Assembly (NCBI GenBank): GCA_959606905.1
Contig: CAUHML010000149.1
Span: forward strand, 1 to 7,991
Origin: an uncultured Bacteroides sp.
GTDB lineage: Bacteria > Bacteroidota > Bacteroidia > Bacteroidales > Bacteroidaceae
Length of the DNA: 7,991 bases
Direction: 5' to 3'
The position numbers and the translations under genes are program-made. Under the pieces are notes generated by a model. The model did no database searches, was not told the DNA's origin, and saw only the letters and a program-made list of their open reading frames with translations. Positions 235-7,991 of the stretch are shown here, piece by piece; positions within the stretch are counted from its first letter, which is position 1, and each line of letters starts with the position of its first letter.

Positions 235-2061
235 TTATCTCGTCATGGATACAATGTCGCTCAGGATCTCAACCAGCTCGCTTCTCTCCTGCGTTCCGTC
301 ATGATAGGTTGATCTTGAGATGATTCTTTCTGATGTCATCTGAGGCCAGAATTTATCTAGTACATTATCGGGTTTCATTCCCACAGCCCGGCCGATTATT
401 TTTTTAGCGTCACAGGTGTCCGTAAACGTGACGGCTACACCAGTAATTTCCTCGATAAGATCCGGGCACAGATAGTTTTCTATCTCACGTTTGCGCGTAG
501 CGAAAAATACCTTACCGGCCTCCTCTACTTCTTTTTTACGCTTCTGGATGGACAGAACCTGTGCAGGGTCTCCCCCAATATCGGAGTCCAGAAATACGCA
601 CCAGGGAAGCCCCAGATCTTTGGCCAGATTCAATGTAACCCAGTGTTTGACGCTACCACACCCTCCTATGAGGACTGGCACTATTTTCACGTCCTCCAGA
701 GAGGCTGGCAGCGCACCTGACTGTTTTAATGAACTGGCCGCATGCCTCAGGAAAGTAACATCCGACTTTCCCTCTACCAGAACAATCCCCTGCGCCCTTT
801 CCATACCGGTCTCTGGCAGCACCCCCAGGCTTTCAGTGGCTTCCTTCAGCACTGCGTCATCCGGCATTTTTACTACGGGTTCACCCGCCTCATTTCGGGT
901 AACATAACGTACGCCTTCGACAGGGATTAATCCGGCCAGCGCCGGGACATGGGTGGTGACGATAATCTGACGGTGCGGCTGGCCTGCCAGTGCCAGTAAC
1001 GCTTTCATCAGCATCATCTGATAGTTCGGATGCTGTGACGTTTCAGGCTCCTCTATGGCATAAATCACATTTCTGGGCGTCCCCGCGACATTCTTTTCAG
1101 CCTCAGCCCGAAAAAAATTCAACAGGATAAGCCTCCTTATCCCGCTGCCGCGCTTATTGATGGGGATGCCATTTTCCCCGTCCAGGGTGAAATTGAAGGT
1201 CCACTTGGGTTTCTCCTTAAATCGTGGAGTCAGTTCACTGGCGAGTTCGGGGGCCATTTCACGTAATTTATCCAGCGTTCTCTGTGCGACATCCAGGACG
1301 CTGTCCTGAATCTCATTTTCCAGCGCTGTAATTTTGTCCTGCAGCGCAGCCTGAGCGTCTTTTACGGCCTGCTGTAAGGGGTTTTTAGCTTCGGAATCCC
1401 CGTCGCTGCTTTCCCTGTCGGCTTTGAAAATCGCATACGTGGGCAGCAAATCGAGGATCTTACCCCATAATGATTTTGTGTCGGTTCCGAACTCTTTATC
1501 GACATCCAGCATAATTTCCGAACAGGTATAGGGGGCTGCGGCTTCCCTGATGGCCTGACGCCATAACGATGCAGTGCGTTTATCCGCCACATTTTTTTCA
1601 ACTTCTTTTCCCACCGCCTTGAGCTCAGAAATTTTCATGCCCAGTAAATTTCTCAGGGGCTCCTCATCCGGGTGGATGCAGCGGATGCAGGTCTGCTCCG
1701 GTTTTCCTGAGGTCGTTGCTTTAAACGTTTTGACGATTTCAAAATTGCCGTCCTCATTCAGCAGATGTTCTGAGGCGAGCGTGGTCTGCACCCTGTCGTC
1801 GATCATGATAAAATCGGGCAGGTCATCAAATTCACAGGCTATTTCAAAACGGCCGTCCCCTTCTCTTAGGCTGAAACAGTTCATGTCATTCTTGTCAGCC
1901 TTCATTCCTTCTGTTTCAAAAAAAATAGCCAGCGCTTCCAGAAGCGTTGATTTCCCAAAGTCATTACGACCGACAATACCCGTCATGCTTTCATCAATAA
2001 TGATTTCAGTAGAGTTTCTGTAGCCTCTGAAGTTTTTCAGTTTTAATTTTCTGAGCCGCAT
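235..2061 (-). CDS. OLD-family ATP-dependent endonuclease (ABC ATPase + TOPRIM)
   Basis: A 608-aa protein with an SMC/ABC-like ATPase followed by a TOPRIM nuclease, the order of OLD (overcoming lysogenization defect) nucleases; P2 Old is of similar size. Visible motifs: Walker A G-R-N-D-F-G-K-S-T at 31-39 (Lys37), signature-like N-K-R-G-S-G-I-R-R at 302-310, Walker B ending I-E-E-P-E near 336-340, switch His371, then TOPRIM with Glu430 in V-L-V-E-G-K-S-D, a Gly-rich G-G-C-G-S segment at 466-470, and D-S-D at 492-494. All core residues look intact. I start at ATG 2059-2061: AGGA sits 6 bases upstream and the protein then begins M-R-L-R-K-L-K-L-K-N-F-R-G, the usual family N-terminus. The frame stays open to a TTG at 2121, which would add 20 atypical residues. 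No UvrD-like helicase (GajB type) adjoins, so it looks like a stand-alone OLD rather than Gabija. Its role is probably cargo defence against phage or foreign DNA; the target is unknown. Confidence 0.93.
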   Translation of the reverse strand: MRLRKLKLKNFRGYRNSTEIIIDESMTGIVGRNDFGKSTLLEALAIFFETEGMKADKNDMNCFSLREGDGRFEIACEFDDLPDFIMIDDRVQTTLASEHLLNEDGNFEIVKTFKATTSGKPEQTCIRCIHPDEEPLRNLLGMKISELKAVGKEVEKNVADKRTASLWRQAIREAAAPYTCSEIMLDVDKEFGTDTKSLWGKILDLLPTYAIFKADRESSDGDSEAKNPLQQAVKDAQAALQDKITALENEIQDSVLDVAQRTLDKLREMAPELASELTPRFKEKPKWTFNFTLDGENGIPINKRGSGIRRLILLNFFRAEAEKNVAGTPRNVIYAIEEPETSQHPNYQMMLMKALLALAGQPHRQIIVTTHVPALAGLIPVEGVRYVTRNEAGEPVVKMPDDAVLKEATESLGVLPETGMERAQGIVLVEGKSDVTFLRHAASSLKQSGALPASLEDVKIVPVLIGGCGSVKHWVTLNLAKDLGLPWCVFLDSDIGGDPAQVLSIQKRKKEVEEAGKVFFATRKREIENYLCPDLIEEITGVAVTFTDTCDAKKIIGRAVGMKPDNVLDKFWPQMTSERIISRSTYHDGTQERSELVEILSDIVSMTR

Positions 2062-2616: not shown

Positions 2617-2645
2617 GCCAGGCGTCACCATTTCTCCCGCCTGGC
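2617..2645. other. 8-bp stem-loop spanning the stop codon of the HipB-like gene
   Basis: GCCAGGCG (2617-2624) pairs perfectly with CGCCTGGC (2638-2645) around a 13-base loop that contains the TGA stop (2627-2625, minus strand). On the minus strand the stem is followed by a GC-rich stretch and only about 12 bases later by TTTTT, so it is not a textbook terminator. It could stabilise the 3' end or act as a weak terminator for the regulator mRNA. Confidence 0.5.
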
Positions 2646-2924
2646 TGGAAGTGAAGAATAATTGTGCATAGCTCCGTATTCGGGCTTTGCATCTGACAAT
2701 GGTTCCCTGGATGAAAGTACGATCTCCACTCCAAGGACGCTGAACACCCTAAACAAACGCTCAAAACCCGCACTTGCAGGGTTGGCCTCTAGTCGGGCAT
2801 AAGTTTGCTGTGTTATACCCAAACGTTCAGAAACATCTTTTTGCGTCAGTCCATTGGCTTTGCGAAAGCCGATTAAAACAGGACGTAACTGATTCAAAGT
2901 CTTCAAAGCGTATTGAGTGTTCAT
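2625..2924 (-). CDS. HipB-like Xre-family DNA-binding protein (orphan antitoxin/regulator)
   Basis: A 99-aa protein with an Xre helix-turn-helix at about residues 26-46 (L-T-Q-K-D-V-S-E-R-L-G-I-T-Q-Q-T), followed by the pattern E-x-N-P-A-S-A-x-F-E-R-L and a short strand G-V-E-I-V-L. That layout, and a C-terminus ending in Lys-Trp, resemble HipB, the DNA-binding antitoxin and autorepressor of HipBA modules. I start at ATG 2922-2924 because GGAAGG lies 6 bases upstream; the frame is open for another 10 codons to 2954, with no comparable site. Two operator-like repeats at 2970-3016 suggest self-regulation. In HipBA modules the toxin gene usually follows and overlaps the antitoxin stop. Here an ATG does overlap the stop region (AAATGGTGA), but it opens a frame of only 18 codons and no HipA-like sequence follows. 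It may be an orphan antitoxin, a repressor of another gene, or the survivor of a lost module. Exact family (HipB against HigA or other Xre) is inference. Confidence 0.82.
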   Translation of the reverse strand: MNTQYALKTLNQLRPVLIGFRKANGLTQKDVSERLGITQQTYARLEANPASAGFERLFRVFSVLGVEIVLSSREPLSDAKPEYGAMHNYSSLPARREKW

Positions 2925-3276: not shown

Positions 3277-4203
3277 TTAGCGAAGAAGTTTTACATTGTA
3301 AAGTGAGCAAAAATATTTACCATTCAACTGGCAAAATTTACAATCTGCAGCCCTTAGCCTGAGAAAATGCACATTAACAGAATAATCATCAAGTCCGATA
3401 GAGGCATAACTTACGTCCTCAAAAATATCAGAAATAAATGAGTTGAAATTACAAAAATTAACTTCACTTAACATCTTGAACACCGCAGAAATATATCTAT
3501 CATGCATTATCTTGACTTCGATAACCTTAGATAAACTTGAATGCGACTTACATTTGAAGAGATCAAAGAGAAAGTAAATCAGCATATTTTTATTGTCCGA
3601 AATCCATTTTAAAATTTTATTACGTGCACATGGTAATATATACACTGGATTTTTGAAAGGGTTTGAAACGTCAACCACAAGGGAACAATAACCATGAGGA
3701 TTTATTCCACTTATAATTAAGTCACTAAGTCCTTTCACTGCATTCAAATAGTTATCAAAACAAACCTCATATAAACTGGTACTATGAACTGCACATTTAG
3801 ATTCAAACAACCATCTATGACGCAGATAACCAATGCCTTTAGAGTGTATATCTTCAACAATACATTTGTGACAGTAACGAATGTTTGAGATGTTTACCAA
3901 TGGATATGAATTAGTTATGTGAAAATTTTTCCGACAGGCATCTTCAACAGCGTTAAAATACCCGTAAACACCAGAAGATAACGACACTATATTGGAAGTT
4001 AGTATATAACCATTTCTAGTGGCAAGAATGTCATATATATCCTGCAAGCTATGCAATTTGTACATATCAATCAGTTCGAAACGAGGAAAGGCATCGTACC
4101 TTAGTGCGCCATGCTTTGATATTATGTTCCTGCAATTGGATAAGTTATACATTATCTGTGAACGCAGAAGAAAACTGTGCCACAATTCATTTTCGTAAAC
4201 CAT
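3277..4203 (-). CDS. small TniQ-family protein, putative second target selector
   Basis: A 308-aa protein with weak but recognisable TniQ features. The N-terminus E-x-L-W-H-S-F-L-L-R (5-14) fits the family opening, and Cys111-x2-Cys114 with Cys137-x2-His140 in K-C-A-V-H-S-T-S-L matches the TniQ zinc site. Near the end is another cluster, Cys288-x2-Cys291-x7-Cys299. It lacks the long DNA-binding region of TnsD and is about the size of short TniQ adaptors that work with another targeting factor, such as the TniQ of CRISPR-associated transposons; no cas gene is seen here. ATG 4203 is preceded by GGGAG at 5 bases, and only 11 bp separate it from the tnsD stop, so the two are probably co-translated. 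Sampled lines are about 34% GC. By analogy it would bind TnsC and help choose the target, perhaps with TnsD. TniQ membership is moderately sure; the function is inference. Confidence 0.75.
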   Translation of the reverse strand: MVYENELWHSFLLRSQIMYNLSNCRNIISKHGALRYDAFPRFELIDMYKLHSLQDIYDILATRNGYILTSNIVSLSSGVYGYFNAVEDACRKNFHITNSYPLVNISNIRYCHKCIVEDIHSKGIGYLRHRWLFESKCAVHSTSLYEVCFDNYLNAVKGLSDLIISGINPHGYCSLVVDVSNPFKNPVYILPCARNKILKWISDNKNMLIYFLFDLFKCKSHSSLSKVIEVKIMHDRYISAVFKMLSEVNFCNFNSFISDIFEDVSYASIGLDDYSVNVHFLRLRAADCKFCQLNGKYFCSLYNVKLLR

Positions 4204-4214
4204 ATAACTCCCTC

Positions 4215-5771
4215 TTATTTAATTAGTTCCATTTTTCTGAGAAGTATCATTGTCATTGGTAGTTTATCTCTGTATTTCAAAAGCCAGCCATGCCCTCCCA
4301 GTAAAGCATCTAGACTTGTAAGTGACATCGAGTACTGCCCCTGAGATAAAACATCATTTATTAATGATGATGAGATAATATCTCTCTCGCTCCAGTCTAC
4401 TCTTTTATTTTTATAGCATCGTATTGTTTTAGGAAGACAGGAATTAAGCCAGTCACATTCATGTTTATTTAGCCAATAGAAACTTGCATAACAACTTTCT
4501 TTGACTAACTTTCGTGTTATAGAAACGGATTGATTATGTATAAATCTTAATATTTTCTGCTTATGACGCCGTCTTAAAGAATCTTTTTTACATTTTTTAC
4601 GCCATGAGCATAAACCGTAACAAGATGAAATTACAGAGGATACAGCTCCTTCCGATAATGAGTTTTTCTCAGCTATGGATGCCAGACTAAACCCCCTTAC
4701 AGCCATAGACTTGATAAGCAATTCAGTGAATATATTAATTTTTGTGTTTCGCTTAAACGCCCTCAGGTATTTTTTATAAATAAGTGTTTTAATGTAACAT
4801 CTGCTGCGACTAAATTCCTTCCCAAGGTTGCTAACACTAGTATTATTTTCAACTATATGAAAACTGTATTTCTTATGACTTTTAAAGATTTCTTTCTTTT
4901 TATTAGTACGACTTCCTGCATACGTTGGCCAGCAAGTATTTAACAAACAATAACAAAGCAAAAGATGCTTTGTGGGATGCTGACAACATTTGTCTTTGAG
5001 TATAGGCTCCCAGTAATGATAATCAGTTAGGGATGTTGGTATAAGTCCCGATGAACCCTCCCCAAATAACTGGCACTTAGCATAAACATGTGCGTAGAAT
5101 ACATTTTTCTTTAAATTTCCATCCAATGATAATAAATTCAACTTTTTAAGTACATCCATGTAATTGGGGTGTGTAATATCTTTTCTTCTGATTATATTTA
5201 GGGACTCATAACAAAACTTAGCAAAATCGAAGTCTATCTCATTGCTAAGTTGTTCTGTATACGAAACAGGAGGCATCAGTCCAATACGTATGTGCGGTGA
5301 AGAAGGGACATGGATGCTTTCAAGCGCTACCGGATGCCGATGGCAGGTTGTAACCCCATGAAGCTGATGCGCCAGATGCCAATAAGTAACACGATAATGA
5401 AAAGTATCTTCACGAGCGCAAACCGGGCAAAACTTCAATAGTGTGCGCTGCCCTAGTGAAAAATTACTAAGGCGGCACAATCGATTAAGCCTGGCAGGGG
5501 TCGTGTTGAAATCCATAATTTCATTACGACTGATTGGTAGTGCCCAGGCAAAAAGAGGGAGTAAAGTCTGTTCATGCCAGAGCTGATCTGCACTTTCGGA
5601 TGTATGAAGAGAAATAGCCTTTAATCCTGAATTGAGAATTGGATGGACGTTCATATCAGGTTTGTTGAAAATGATCGTTAACAGAGAAGATGGGGACATA
5701 CCGTACACGGTAGTTGTCCGACAAAACCGGCTGAACAAGGATTCATCAGGCAAAACAGGCAACATTCTCAT
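4215..5771 (-). CDS. tnsD: TnsD-like (TniQ-family) target-site selector
   Basis: A 518-aa protein close in size to Tn7 TnsD (508 aa), which binds the attachment site and recruits TnsC. It opens M-R-M-L-P-V-L-P-D-E-S-L, like the TnsD N-terminus. The zinc site is Cys115, Cys118, Cys143, His146. Beyond it are two likely helix-turn-helix segments (about 312-331 and 362-381) and the TnsD-type C-terminal pattern F-Y-W-L-N-K-H-E-C-D-W-L (431-442) then R-V-D-W-S-E-R-D (457-464) and D-K-L-P (502-505). I start at ATG 5771, with AGAGG 8 bases upstream; a GTG at 5780 would add three residues but overlaps that site. The protein stops about 13 residues after D-K-L-P, whereas as I recall it Tn7 TnsD runs on for some 65-70, so the tail looks short; reading past the stop does not recover it. 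GC content drops sharply near 5281, just after the zinc-site codons. The target is not shown by the sequence. Confidence 0.9.
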   Translation of the reverse strand: MRMLPVLPDESLFSRFCRTTTVYGMSPSSLLTIIFNKPDMNVHPILNSGLKAISLHTSESADQLWHEQTLLPLFAWALPISRNEIMDFNTTPARLNRLCRLSNFSLGQRTLLKFCPVCAREDTFHYRVTYWHLAHQLHGVTTCHRHPVALESIHVPSSPHIRIGLMPPVSYTEQLSNEIDFDFAKFCYESLNIIRRKDITHPNYMDVLKKLNLLSLDGNLKKNVFYAHVYAKCQLFGEGSSGLIPTSLTDYHYWEPILKDKCCQHPTKHLLLCYCLLNTCWPTYAGSRTNKKKEIFKSHKKYSFHIVENNTSVSNLGKEFSRSRCYIKTLIYKKYLRAFKRNTKINIFTELLIKSMAVRGFSLASIAEKNSLSEGAVSSVISSCYGLCSWRKKCKKDSLRRRHKQKILRFIHNQSVSITRKLVKESCYASFYWLNKHECDWLNSCLPKTIRCYKNKRVDWSERDIISSSLINDVLSQGQYSMSLTSLDALLGGHGWLLKYRDKLPMTMILLRKMELIK

Positions 5772-5811
5772 TTCCCACACCTCTCTTTGACCGTTACGAA
5801 CTGTTACCTCA

Positions 5812-7260
5812 TTACAATTTATTAAGTGGATCTATATTTATAAGCCCGCAACGCTGAAGAGCATCGTAGGTATTTTTCTTTTCAGCTGTTCTGTTGATAA
5901 CAAGATCGTGGTCAAGAGACAGTATTTTCTCGTCGAAATTGCGCAAAACCTCGTCTATTTTTCCTACGAATTCCTTGTGCTGTGGCCTGTCTATATCCCC
6001 AGGGATCAAAGACTTTAGGGACTTCTCTGCCATGATTTTAGCCGAAGCATCACCCTCATTAGATGCAGAGAGCCATTTAGCTTCCTCATCTTCAGTCGCG
6101 GCCCCCGGGAGTGGAGTATCCTTATATTCCTCCGTATGACTCACGAGTACCGGTACAGAGGCCGACAAGACTGCGCCAGTGATGATTTCATTGCCGCTAC
6201 CGATAACCTTTAATTGTGCCCCCCGATAAATCATCTGAGCCAATCCAATATTGCCTTTAGATAAAATGAATAATTTTTCGTTTAACTCATCATTTAATGG
6301 AGTTTCAACATTTGTCCATTGTAATGGCCATAAATAATGAATAAACGATTGCCAGTCTTGTGAATCGTATCTAACATTCTTAATTTTCATGTAACCACCA
6401 GACTCTGCCCGCCTGGCAATTCTCATTTTCTTTGTCAGCGTCTCGTCAAAAGGATGATTTCCACAAAAAACCATAGATACCCCCATGGAATCTACAATTT
6501 CATGTAAAAAATCAATCAACTTACTCTCACCCCCGGTTCTTGAAAATTTAAGCCTCTGCATTTCATCAATAACAAGGATACCCAAAAATGATGATTTAAT
6601 TCTTTGTGCAATCTGGCGAGCCAGAGCACCATTTCTAATCTCAGGTGTAGTTCGTTCAATACCAATTGCATCATCTAATTTTTGTAAAATCTCTTCACAA
6701 AGGTCTCTCACACTTGAATTGTATGGACAATTAATCTTTACCCATACAATTTGCTTACTGAAGCCGGGAAAAACTCCTTTATAGCTGCTGTGTTCTATAA
6801 TCTGAGGGAAATGATCCATGACTTGCTCAATCATGGTAGTTTTTCCAGAACCACTCATTCCAACTATCGTAATAGTTTCAGCCTGGGATTTAAAATATCC
6901 ACTTTCTGGCTCAATATCAGGACGCTCATTTCCATAGTAATGAAGATATTGAATTGTTCCGCTTTTTAAAGGATTACGAGCTGCATAGCTTTCCCTAAGT
7001 GCCCGTAAGATCATCTTATAAGCCTGGATAAGATTGGTTTGAGGGCAACGGAATTTCTTTATACGTTCGACATACTGCTCTCTAACATTCGCCGGGGCAG
7101 TCCAGCGGATTTTTTCGTCAATTTCGGGGAAATAACTCATTTCCAGAAGTACTTCATCTTCCGTAAGCGCTTCAGGAAGTGCTTCAATTAAGGGATTGCC
7201 ACGATACTCAGGTAACTCCTGTTCTTTATATATCGCTGAAACGCGCCGTATAAGATTCAT
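5812..7260 (-). CDS. tnsC: TnsC-like AAA+ ATPase, transposition regulator
   Basis: A 482-aa AAA+ ATPase of the TnsC/TniB group. In Tn7 this protein assembles on DNA at the site picked by the TniQ/TnsD protein and activates the TnsA-TnsB transposase. Visible motifs: Walker A G-M-S-G-S-G-K-T at 134-141, Walker B L-G-I-L-V-I-D-E at 226-233, a sensor-1-like F-C-G-N-H-P at 265-270 and arginine-finger candidates near Arg280-Arg284. About 130 residues precede the ATPase core and about 100 follow it; in Tn7 the flanking regions contact TnsD and the transposase. The length is less than the 555 aa of Tn7 TnsC. The ATG at 7260 overlaps the tnsB stop by one base (TAATG), with GAGG 10 bases upstream, pointing to coupled translation. 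All catalytic motifs look intact. Confidence 0.93.
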   Translation of the reverse strand: MNLIRRVSAIYKEQELPEYRGNPLIEALPEALTEDEVLLEMSYFPEIDEKIRWTAPANVREQYVERIKKFRCPQTNLIQAYKMILRALRESYAARNPLKSGTIQYLHYYGNERPDIEPESGYFKSQAETITIVGMSGSGKTTMIEQVMDHFPQIIEHSSYKGVFPGFSKQIVWVKINCPYNSSVRDLCEEILQKLDDAIGIERTTPEIRNGALARQIAQRIKSSFLGILVIDEMQRLKFSRTGGESKLIDFLHEIVDSMGVSMVFCGNHPFDETLTKKMRIARRAESGGYMKIKNVRYDSQDWQSFIHYLWPLQWTNVETPLNDELNEKLFILSKGNIGLAQMIYRGAQLKVIGSGNEIITGAVLSASVPVLVSHTEEYKDTPLPGAATEDEEAKWLSASNEGDASAKIMAEKSLKSLIPGDIDRPQHKEFVGKIDEVLRNFDEKILSLDHDLVINRTAEKKNTYDALQRCGLINIDPLNKL

Positions 7261-7991
7261 TATTCTGCGTCCTCAGTCTTCTTCTTACCTTTTAACCATC
7301 TTTGTTTCTCCTCCCGGCCAGGCAAAAGCAGAACATTACTGGATGAAGGAAGTAGGGGTTCAGATCTTCCATTAGCAACATGAGTTCGCCCTAATGAATC
7401 AAGTTCATTTTTCCTGTTCTTTTTAATATCTTTACCATGTACCCGGCGAGATTCGTATATTTCATTTAATCTTTCGTTACCTTTCCTGTTAAATTCATCT
7501 TTATTATTGATATTGCTGAGCGAATCCAGAGTAAATAAATTAATTTCTTTTTGAGTATCTACCCAATCAGCCATTACATCTGTATCAAGATGAGCTTTCC
7601 CTTTAAATACATCTCTTTTCTTAAGTAGGTAATGTTTTTTGAAAATGCTATTTTTGTCAAATCTTACATATATATAATCTACGCAATTGTCATCTATTCT
7701 TGCTTCACAAGTGGTTCTTCCAAATACTCTGACACCTGATGCAATTTCAGGATCACATTCATAAAAAAGATTATTGTACTGAATCCCACCGGCGGTAATG
7801 TTAGCGTTCACAGGGATTAACAATCGTGCGATCACTTCGTCGGCCCCAACGGCTCTTGCGCTGAATCTCCCGTGCTTTAAGCTTATCATCCAACTATTTT
7901 TTGGTGATATTACGAGATCATTTTCAATCAGTAAGGGATTGATATAAGCCAGTTCCTCATACGTTCTCTGATTATGTGCAAGTATCTCCCG
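7260..7991 (-). CDS. tnsB: TnsB-like DDE transposase, C-terminal part (partial)
   Basis: The frame is open from the right edge to the TAA at 7262-7260, giving 243 residues with no start in view; the ATG at 7889 is internal (residue 35 of this fragment). It matches the region after the catalytic domain of TnsB/TniA transposases: a Mu-transposase-type beta-barrel at about residues 25-100 with the typical G-I-Q-Y-N-N-L-F-Y, then a charged, probably helical tail rich in Lys, Arg, Asn and Glu ending L-K-G-K-K-K-T-E-D-A-E. TnsB binds the transposon ends and joins them to the target; the tail of TnsB contacts TnsC in Tn7-type systems. The DDE residues would lie off the window. The stop overlaps the tnsC start by one base. 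Identity rests on domain pattern and on position just before tnsC. Confidence 0.88.
   Translation of the reverse strand, partial: REILAHNQRTYEELAYINPLLIENDLVISPKNSWMISLKHGRFSARAVGADEVIARLLIPVNANITAGGIQYNNLFYECDPEIASGVRVFGRTTCEARIDDNCVDYIYVRFDKNSIFKKHYLLKKRDVFKGKAHLDTDVMADWVDTQKEINLFTLDSLSNINNKDEFNRKGNERLNEIYESRRVHGKDIKKNRKNELDSLGRTHVANGRSEPLLPSSSNVLLLPGREEKQRWLKGKKKTEDAE

Follow-up and report, generated by a model that had tools for sequence, protein, structure and literature searches.

The stretch analysed here, 7,991 nucleotides of contig CAUHML010000149.1 from an uncultured Bacteroides sp. (the window; C37:14774-22764 in the source genome), comprises the tns half of a Tn7-like transposon of the Tn6230 (pco/sil) family, in which tnsD is followed by the gene for a 308-residue protein that, as judged by profile comparison, is a divergent member of the TniQ family (hereafter the short TniQ). 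The element and its relatives occupy yhiN on the chromosome and sites on plasmids, with 5-bp target duplications. We see an even chance that the Tn6230 family represents a two-pathway transposon, in which TnsD would direct insertion to yhiN and the short TniQ would direct it to plasmids via another DNA-binding protein; both the assignment of selectors to sites and the existence of such a partner are what we infer from these addresses and from related systems. The fifth gene of Tn6230 is here assigned to TniQ; dual tniQ-tnsD loci, many without Cascade, have already been published (Faure 2023, PMC10293859), so the element is a well-placed example of an established kind. The transposon hosting the two selectors carries copper and silver resistance genes and is very common in gut bacteria. 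With the conserved second selector named and the sites mapped to the base pair, its choice of target becomes experimentally addressable.

A second TniQ-family gene beside tnsD

The earlier note on this DNA had described a full-size tnsD followed 11 bp later by a 308-residue protein with the TniQ N-terminal pattern and a C-x2-C...C-x2-H zinc site, and both open reading frames (ORFs) are indeed found there on the minus strand. The smaller protein matches TniQ by profile. With hhalign, 20 short-TniQ relatives matched 20 TnsD proteins with a probability of 96.1% and an expectation value (E) of 3.4e-9, the C-x2-C...C-x2-H residues being aligned between the two profiles, whereas the 308-residue protein alone scored 20.9 bits against Pfam TniQ (E 6e-4, residues 3-144), below the cut-off of 27; NCBIfam gave no match for it. 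Among 13 relatives scanned, Pfam TniQ was detected at E <= 0.05 in 11 and the cut-off was passed by two (331 residues at 42.2 bits and 381 residues at 27.7 bits), while two others (L032 and L033) gave no match. Ten residues (C111, C114, G123, W131, C137, H140, C192, C288, C291 and C299) are invariant in 23 of 23 relatives, in an alignment that had 20 rows at first and 23 later. The first zinc site, C111 C114 C137 H140, consists of the TniQ zinc residues and is thus kept throughout; C192, C288, C291 and C299 look like a second, predicted metal site. A TnsD-type DNA-binding extension cannot fit into 308 residues, which bears out the note's statement that the long DNA-binding part is absent.

The first database search had returned six proteins, the window's own included, the other five being 59-89% identical; relatives at about 16-22% identity came from other genomes and a profile search. 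One of these six, the database variant P0005, showed apparent C-to-T substitutions throughout, probably a sequencing or treatment artefact, and was excluded; the partial sequences P0004 and P0013 were omitted from the alignments. An AlphaFold2 model of the short TniQ from a 10-sequence alignment reached a predicted local distance difference test score (pLDDT) of 42.3, too low for use, and was set aside. Sequence searches of the PDB with the short TniQ and TnsD returned unrelated chains or none, and no TniQ chain.

TnsD matched both TniQ PF06527 (70.2 bits) and TnsD PF15978 (56.9 bits) in Pfam. Its AlphaFold2 model (pLDDT 80.2) resembled Tn7 TnsD(1-318) in 8glw and 8glu (E 5e-8 and 1e-7; template modelling score 0.74 by target and 0.46 by query), with further helices behind the TniQ core. 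The protein would accordingly comprise a TniQ core and a C-terminal extension that, by likeness to TnsD, probably binds DNA. Because it models as Tn7 TnsD with extra helices, TnsD may well recognize yhiN by the Tn7 rule.

The short TniQ is shorter than TnsD and falls under the Pfam cut-off, as might be expected of a decayed tnsD duplicate. This explanation is already contradicted, and we give it next to no credence. The ratio of non-synonymous to synonymous substitution rates (dN/dS) of tniQ is 0.25 between the window and a 94%-identical element and 0.16 against a 70%-identical element, the latter with a dS of 1.88, near saturation; that of tnsD is 0.30 for the nearer element, and both genes are under purifying selection. 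The 308-residue frame is intact at every one of the 18 loci checked, among which there are copies of one another. In a tree of 62 TniQ cores, the 23 short proteins split off on their own (96/95), as do 23 TnsD proteins (99/99); the rows had been gathered with same-family profiles, which favours such a split, several branches are long and the root is a midpoint root only. The ten invariant residues likewise argue against decay.

Conservation of the pair points the same way, and the earlier note's view of two co-conserved selectors rather than a decayed copy is upheld. At least 80% of the tnsD-tniQ stretch lies in one place in 657 of the 699 E. coli records with any match; insertion sequences interrupt it in some of the listed copies, in KSC9 probably within tniQ. 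A short TniQ accompanies tnsD in all nine decidable yhiN-flanked loci with a close TnsD. It stands directly after tnsD in L066, L067 and L069 (308 residues), L109-L111 (361-362 residues) and L112 and L113 (373-381 residues), and 9.3 kb beyond it in L108/L128 (299 residues). These nine loci are not independent, L066, L067 and L069 being Tn6230 or near it and the TniQ cores of L109 and L110 identical; L106 was left out as undecidable, its contig ending 3.1 kb past tnsD. An element about 70% identical (L028) is also flanked by yhiN and carries both genes. A second TniQ-family gene is thus co-conserved with tnsD. Loci L114-L122 mostly have their genes ordered tnsABC-TniQ-TnsD, and the stretches read there contained no yhiN. 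Seven of their TniQ proteins were placed in the tree: those of L118 and L119 branch on the short-TniQ side, immediately outside that clade, and five group with TnsD. At a single locus, L131:14368-16544, the tnsD frame ends after 321 residues, which leaves no room for the DNA-binding part, beside an intact short TniQ of 331 residues; this element occupies another chromosomal site, where the neighbouring gene is HxlR-like (by eye) and not yhiN, with no clear duplication.

The element itself has been described as Tn6230 or the pco-sil transposon, with the same tnsABCD, pco/sil cargo, ends and IncHI2 duplications (Fang 2016, PMC4855149) and the same yhiN site (a 2024 review, PMC11406308). The accounts differ over the fifth gene, which is TniQ-family here: it was a hypothetical ORF, judged by position, in Fang 2016; the operon was written tnsABCDE in Hooton 2021 (PMC8417528) and tnsABCD in PMC8865565; and no paper was found that assigns the gene to TniQ in its accessible text.

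Insertion sites on chromosomes and plasmids

According to the 2024 review, Tn6230 targets yhiN, 'but molecular details are unknown' (PMC11406308), and in E. coli it has been reported solely at the yhiN-yhiM hotspot (PMC10121019). The tnsC-tnsD-tniQ stretch matches 693 of 5426 complete E. coli genomes, and in 659 of these the match covers at least 80% of its length. The yhiN-right-end junction is found in 645 (80% cover), a slightly high count that takes in strain J53, in which the two parts of the junction are separated. E. coli NT1F34 carries the element within the last yhiN codons with ATTGC duplicated, so that the C-terminus changes from ...DLIAAKSS* in K-12 to ...DLIAVRGQ*, the stop coming from the transposon right end. 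The right end of the approximately 70% identical element likewise supplies yhiN with a new C-terminus and stop (VQKQ*). In L106 and L108-L113, yhiN ends earlier and the transposon end follows just after its stop. Among 392 genomes of the family, a search with the right end gave nine close matches: four at yhiN (L046, in the window's own genome, L047, L050 and L051), three at the IncHI2 locus (L052-L054) and two elsewhere (Pantoea L048 and Serratia L049). The right end of a distant element (L055) also lies elsewhere, and eight other matches were short and at chance level. In a spread sample of 60 right-end records, yhiN lay under the right end in 51 of 53 chromosomal rows, the other two being a tandem array at yhiN and J53. 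One E. coli chromosome (NZ_CM125664.1, 201500-258500; L137, L147) carries two different dual-selector Tn7-like elements in tandem at yhiN.

On plasmids, the tnsC-tnsD-tniQ stretch matches 205 records and the right end is present in 600, of which 554 are predicted to be conjugative; right ends thus far outnumber tns operons in this collection. The right end is joined to an R478-type IncHI2 flank in 549 records and, listed separately, to an IncHI1-type flank in 46 (80% cover in both cases). For IncHI2 plasmids, Fang 2016 reported ends of 28 bp and flanking 5-bp repeats, either GGTCC or GTCCT (PMC4855149). Exact duplications mark independent insertions at this IncH locus, where we read GGTCC in R478, CCTAC in pGENC253, 3 bp further on, and GGTGG in pN19S0223-1 (typed IncFIA, MOBH); GGTGG recurs, at the same base pair, with the approximately 70%-identical element in p08-4425.1 (typed IncHI1B). 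The right-end offset in L041 matches the published GTCCT duplication, and L040 combines a right end at the IncHI1-type position with a left flank of IncHI2 type and lacks a duplication. The four copies at the locus with both ends read share one orientation. In pGENC253 (L125) both ends are kept at +3 without tns or pco/sil between them, and L045 is similar.

Other plasmids were entered elsewhere. In pRHBSTW-00965_2 (predicted mobilizable), GAAGA is duplicated and the right flank is that of the Serratia contig L049. A second dual-selector element (TnsA WP_015056397.1, TniQ WP_015056408.1) is found in pJEF1-OXA-181, with AATGC duplicated if one extra T is allowed at the right end, and the proteins of the pJEF1-OXA-181 element are also found at yhiN in E. 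coli CM125664; this second lineage therefore shows the same two kinds of address. In the conjugative plasmid pB18196_2 (L148), a dual-selector element sits in an array whose repeats measure roughly 56 bp by eye; the array separates tnsA from parA and may be a partition or replication site.

Near the insertions, at 44-54 bp from the right end, is the centre of an inverted repeat whose arms pair at 7/7 positions at the IncHI2 and Pantoea sites, 6/7 at IncHI1 and G1101, 3/7 at the Serratia/Citrobacter plasmid site and at most 5/7 at J53 and yhiN; the nearest one in pJEF1 has 6/7 at 43 bp. The chance expectation is 0.010 for 7/7 and 0.086 for at least 6/7, for a search window picked after seeing IncHI2. 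The flanks at G1101 (ACAGG and GGAGA) show no clean duplication.

A proposed division of labour between TnsD and the short TniQ

The earlier note had left the choice between a mixed complex at one site and two pathways. The genomic sites, yhiN and plasmids, lean to two pathways; neither protein is tied by them to either site. Since the element and its relatives are found at addresses of two kinds, the short TniQ makes a good candidate for the selector that finds the plasmid address, a role also suggested because extension-less TniQ proteins serve elsewhere as adaptors to Cascade or TnsF. In the proposed mechanism, the C-terminal DNA-binding part of TnsD would recognize the 3' end of the yhiN coding sequence, which is conserved, and TnsD would steer insertion there through TnsC, the right end then providing yhiN with a new C-terminus and stop codon. 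The short TniQ, without this extension, would be an adaptor that also loads TnsC, acting at a complex of another DNA-binding protein on plasmids, chiefly at the fixed IncH locus; it would thereby fill the role of TnsE in Tn7 or of Cascade in CRISPR-associated transposons (CASTs). Several observations count in favour of this division: the short TniQ is TniQ-family, forms its own clade, is under purifying selection and is co-conserved with tnsD; Tn6230 and the approximately 70%-identical element share the same IncH base pair (GGTGG); the second dual-selector element lies both at yhiN and on a plasmid; and L131, a single case with its curtailed TnsD and intact short TniQ, lies away from yhiN.

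Several points weigh against it. No computation ties the plasmid site to the short TniQ, and TnsD might read both sites. No partner DNA-binding protein for the short TniQ was found. At L035, which lies at yhiN with a TnsD 26% identical, there is no short TniQ in the stretches read, which reach about 29 kb past tnsD. Database clusters comprise 6612 members for TnsD and 2266 for the short TniQ, a gap that may be due to clustering. Most plasmid copies reflect descent, and because descent dominates the counts, few independent insertions, about five, can be counted at the IncH locus. Relatives are present on two rep_cluster_1506 plasmids predicted to be non-mobilizable (pYZLc5-3_NDM-1_129k and pZN5-103kb), and the other plasmid sites have no clear motif in common. 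The palindrome was rejected as a general insertion signal, since it fits some sites only, and is kept as a lead. Finally, in the chromosome of J53 pMG101-B (CP070962, the accession cited in Hooton 2021, PMC8417528), an insertion lies 289 bp beyond the yhiN stop with TCAAC duplicated. It falls in an inverted repeat close to the yhiM end, at neither the yhiN 3' site nor the IncH locus. The attTn7 site (CCCGC) described for this insertion in Hooton 2021 (PMC8417528) does not fit the CP070962 sequence, in which TCAAC is read instead.

A more specific proposal, which we hold tentatively and consider doubtful, is that the two-metal short TniQ is a new type of adaptor, allowing plasmid insertion without TnsE, TnsF or Cascade via a plasmid or host protein bound to palindromic or repeated DNA. 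Candidate DNA for such a protein is the TTAGTAAAG-CTTTACTAA palindrome, which lies 48-52 bp away from the insertions in IncHI2, or, in pB18196_2, the array of repeats upstream of parA. Were the short TniQ to have a protein partner, this would add to the ways in which Tn7-type insertion can be coupled to a DNA-bound protein of choice, and a new adaptor type would amount to a natural protein-bridged targeting route.

Alternatively, a single mixed complex of TnsD and the short TniQ may be needed at yhiN, the plasmid sites being its secondary targets. Two TniQ copies form one complex in type I-F CASTs. The adjacency of tnsD and tniQ, with a ribosome-binding-site-like stretch close by, and their co-conservation would be consistent with such a complex; however, tniQ lies 5-9 kb from tnsD in L108/L128, L033, L034 and L107, so adjacency is not conserved, and the two selectors of CyCAST act separately, TniQ reducing homing (PMC10293859). 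We regard this explanation as rather unlikely. It is distinctly unlikely, in our estimation, that TnsD alone reads the yhiN and IncH sites alike, with the short TniQ in another or a non-selective role: the two elements that share the exact IncH base pair do each carry TnsD, but the yhiN and IncH flanks have no evident sequence in common (by eye, with no alignment statistic), and the short TniQ is under purifying selection. A brake, whereby the short TniQ would set the rate of transposition by competing with TnsD for TnsC, would recall CyCAST, in which TnsD homing fell from 0.008% to 0.0006% once TniQ was added (PMC10293859). Such a function is very unlikely here, as it leaves the plasmid sites unexplained and it is not obvious why a mere competitor should need a second set of invariant cysteines in its C-terminal half.

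The two-pathway arrangement resembles that of Tn7, in which TnsD and TnsE serve a fixed chromosomal site and conjugative plasmids (PMC11406308); the fifth gene here is TniQ-family, however, and the main site on plasmids is a locus that is hit repeatedly. Tn6022 (TniQ and TnsF) offers the precedent of a short TniQ as adaptor for another DNA-binding protein (PMC10293859), whereas no gene annotated TnsF is present in the element here, for which no TnsF profile search was made. That two-selector elements are known, in 'some' Tn7-like elements according to the earlier note, is correct and understated: Faure 2023 reported 1,048 loci with tandem tniQ/tnsD, proposed that a small TniQ marks out transposons that have an additional selector, and stated its role as an adaptor as a general expectation (PMC10293859). 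The Tn7017 branch in that work is similar in having one long and one short TniQ-family gene, mostly without Cascade I-F, whereas Tn7017 itself is a CAST (PMC10293859). 'Tn6230' does not occur in the main text of Faure 2023, and no place for the element was found in its tree. A Tn7-like element of Vibrio cidicii VC01 adjoins yhiN and has tnsABCD plus a further tniQ/tnsD selector (PMC12671221), a likeness drawn from reported gene content alone.

As the earlier note had remarked, no cas gene is visible: none is annotated in the element (annotated copy), and visual inspection of ORF lists showed none. The Csy3 profile, the sole cas profile used, was silent in the window's genome and R478; of the 11 genomes or records searched, two (G1179 and G1168) had a match, which lay on a different contig or about 400 kb away from the element. 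By annotation and this profile, the element would not be a CAST. Nor does the fifth gene appear as tnsE, its Pfam match at E 1 being TniQ only; a genome-wide TnsE_C profile search was silent everywhere, controls included, and adds no evidence.

Gene layout of the element

Features of the window (nucleotide positions; all on the minus strand)
Feature	Position	Strand	Remarks
tnsB, C-terminal part	7260..7991	-	continues past window edge
tnsC, AAA+ selector-transposase bridge, 482 aa	5812..7260	-	Pfam TniB 44.4 bits, AAA_22 68.7 bits
tnsD, 518 aa	4215..5771	-	RefSeq start; TniQ domain N-terminal, helix-rich part C-terminal
Gap from tnsD stop to tniQ start, 11 bp	4204..4214	-	ribosome-binding-site-like AGAGGGAG across gap
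Short TniQ-family selector, 308 aa	3277..4203	-	RefSeq WP_000262423.1 'hypothetical protein'
HipB/Xre-like helix-turn-helix gene, cargo or regulator	2625..2924	-	HTH_3 47.9 bits
OLD-like AAA_15 ATPase with TOPRIM, cargo	235..2061	-	Pfam

On the minus strand, going from right to left, the order is the end of tnsB, tnsC, tnsD, the 308-residue gene, the helix-turn-helix (HTH) gene and the OLD-like ATPase. An alternative tnsD of 521 residues would start from GTG at 5780, and AGAGGGAG ends four bases ahead of the tniQ ATG. The element has the features of a Tn7-like transposon, namely tnsABC with tnsD and, as read in other copies, TGT...ACA ends and 5-bp target duplications (ATTGC, GGTCC, GGTGG and CCTAC). 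In the window's own genome, the right end, which is the end read there, lies at yhiN on a separate contig (C47) and is taken to belong to the same element; the contig carrying the window ends inside tnsB, at C37:23950. Downstream of the HTH and ATPase genes, the annotated copy has DUF305 and then silE, and the contig continues into ORFs labelled as sil genes in annotated copies.

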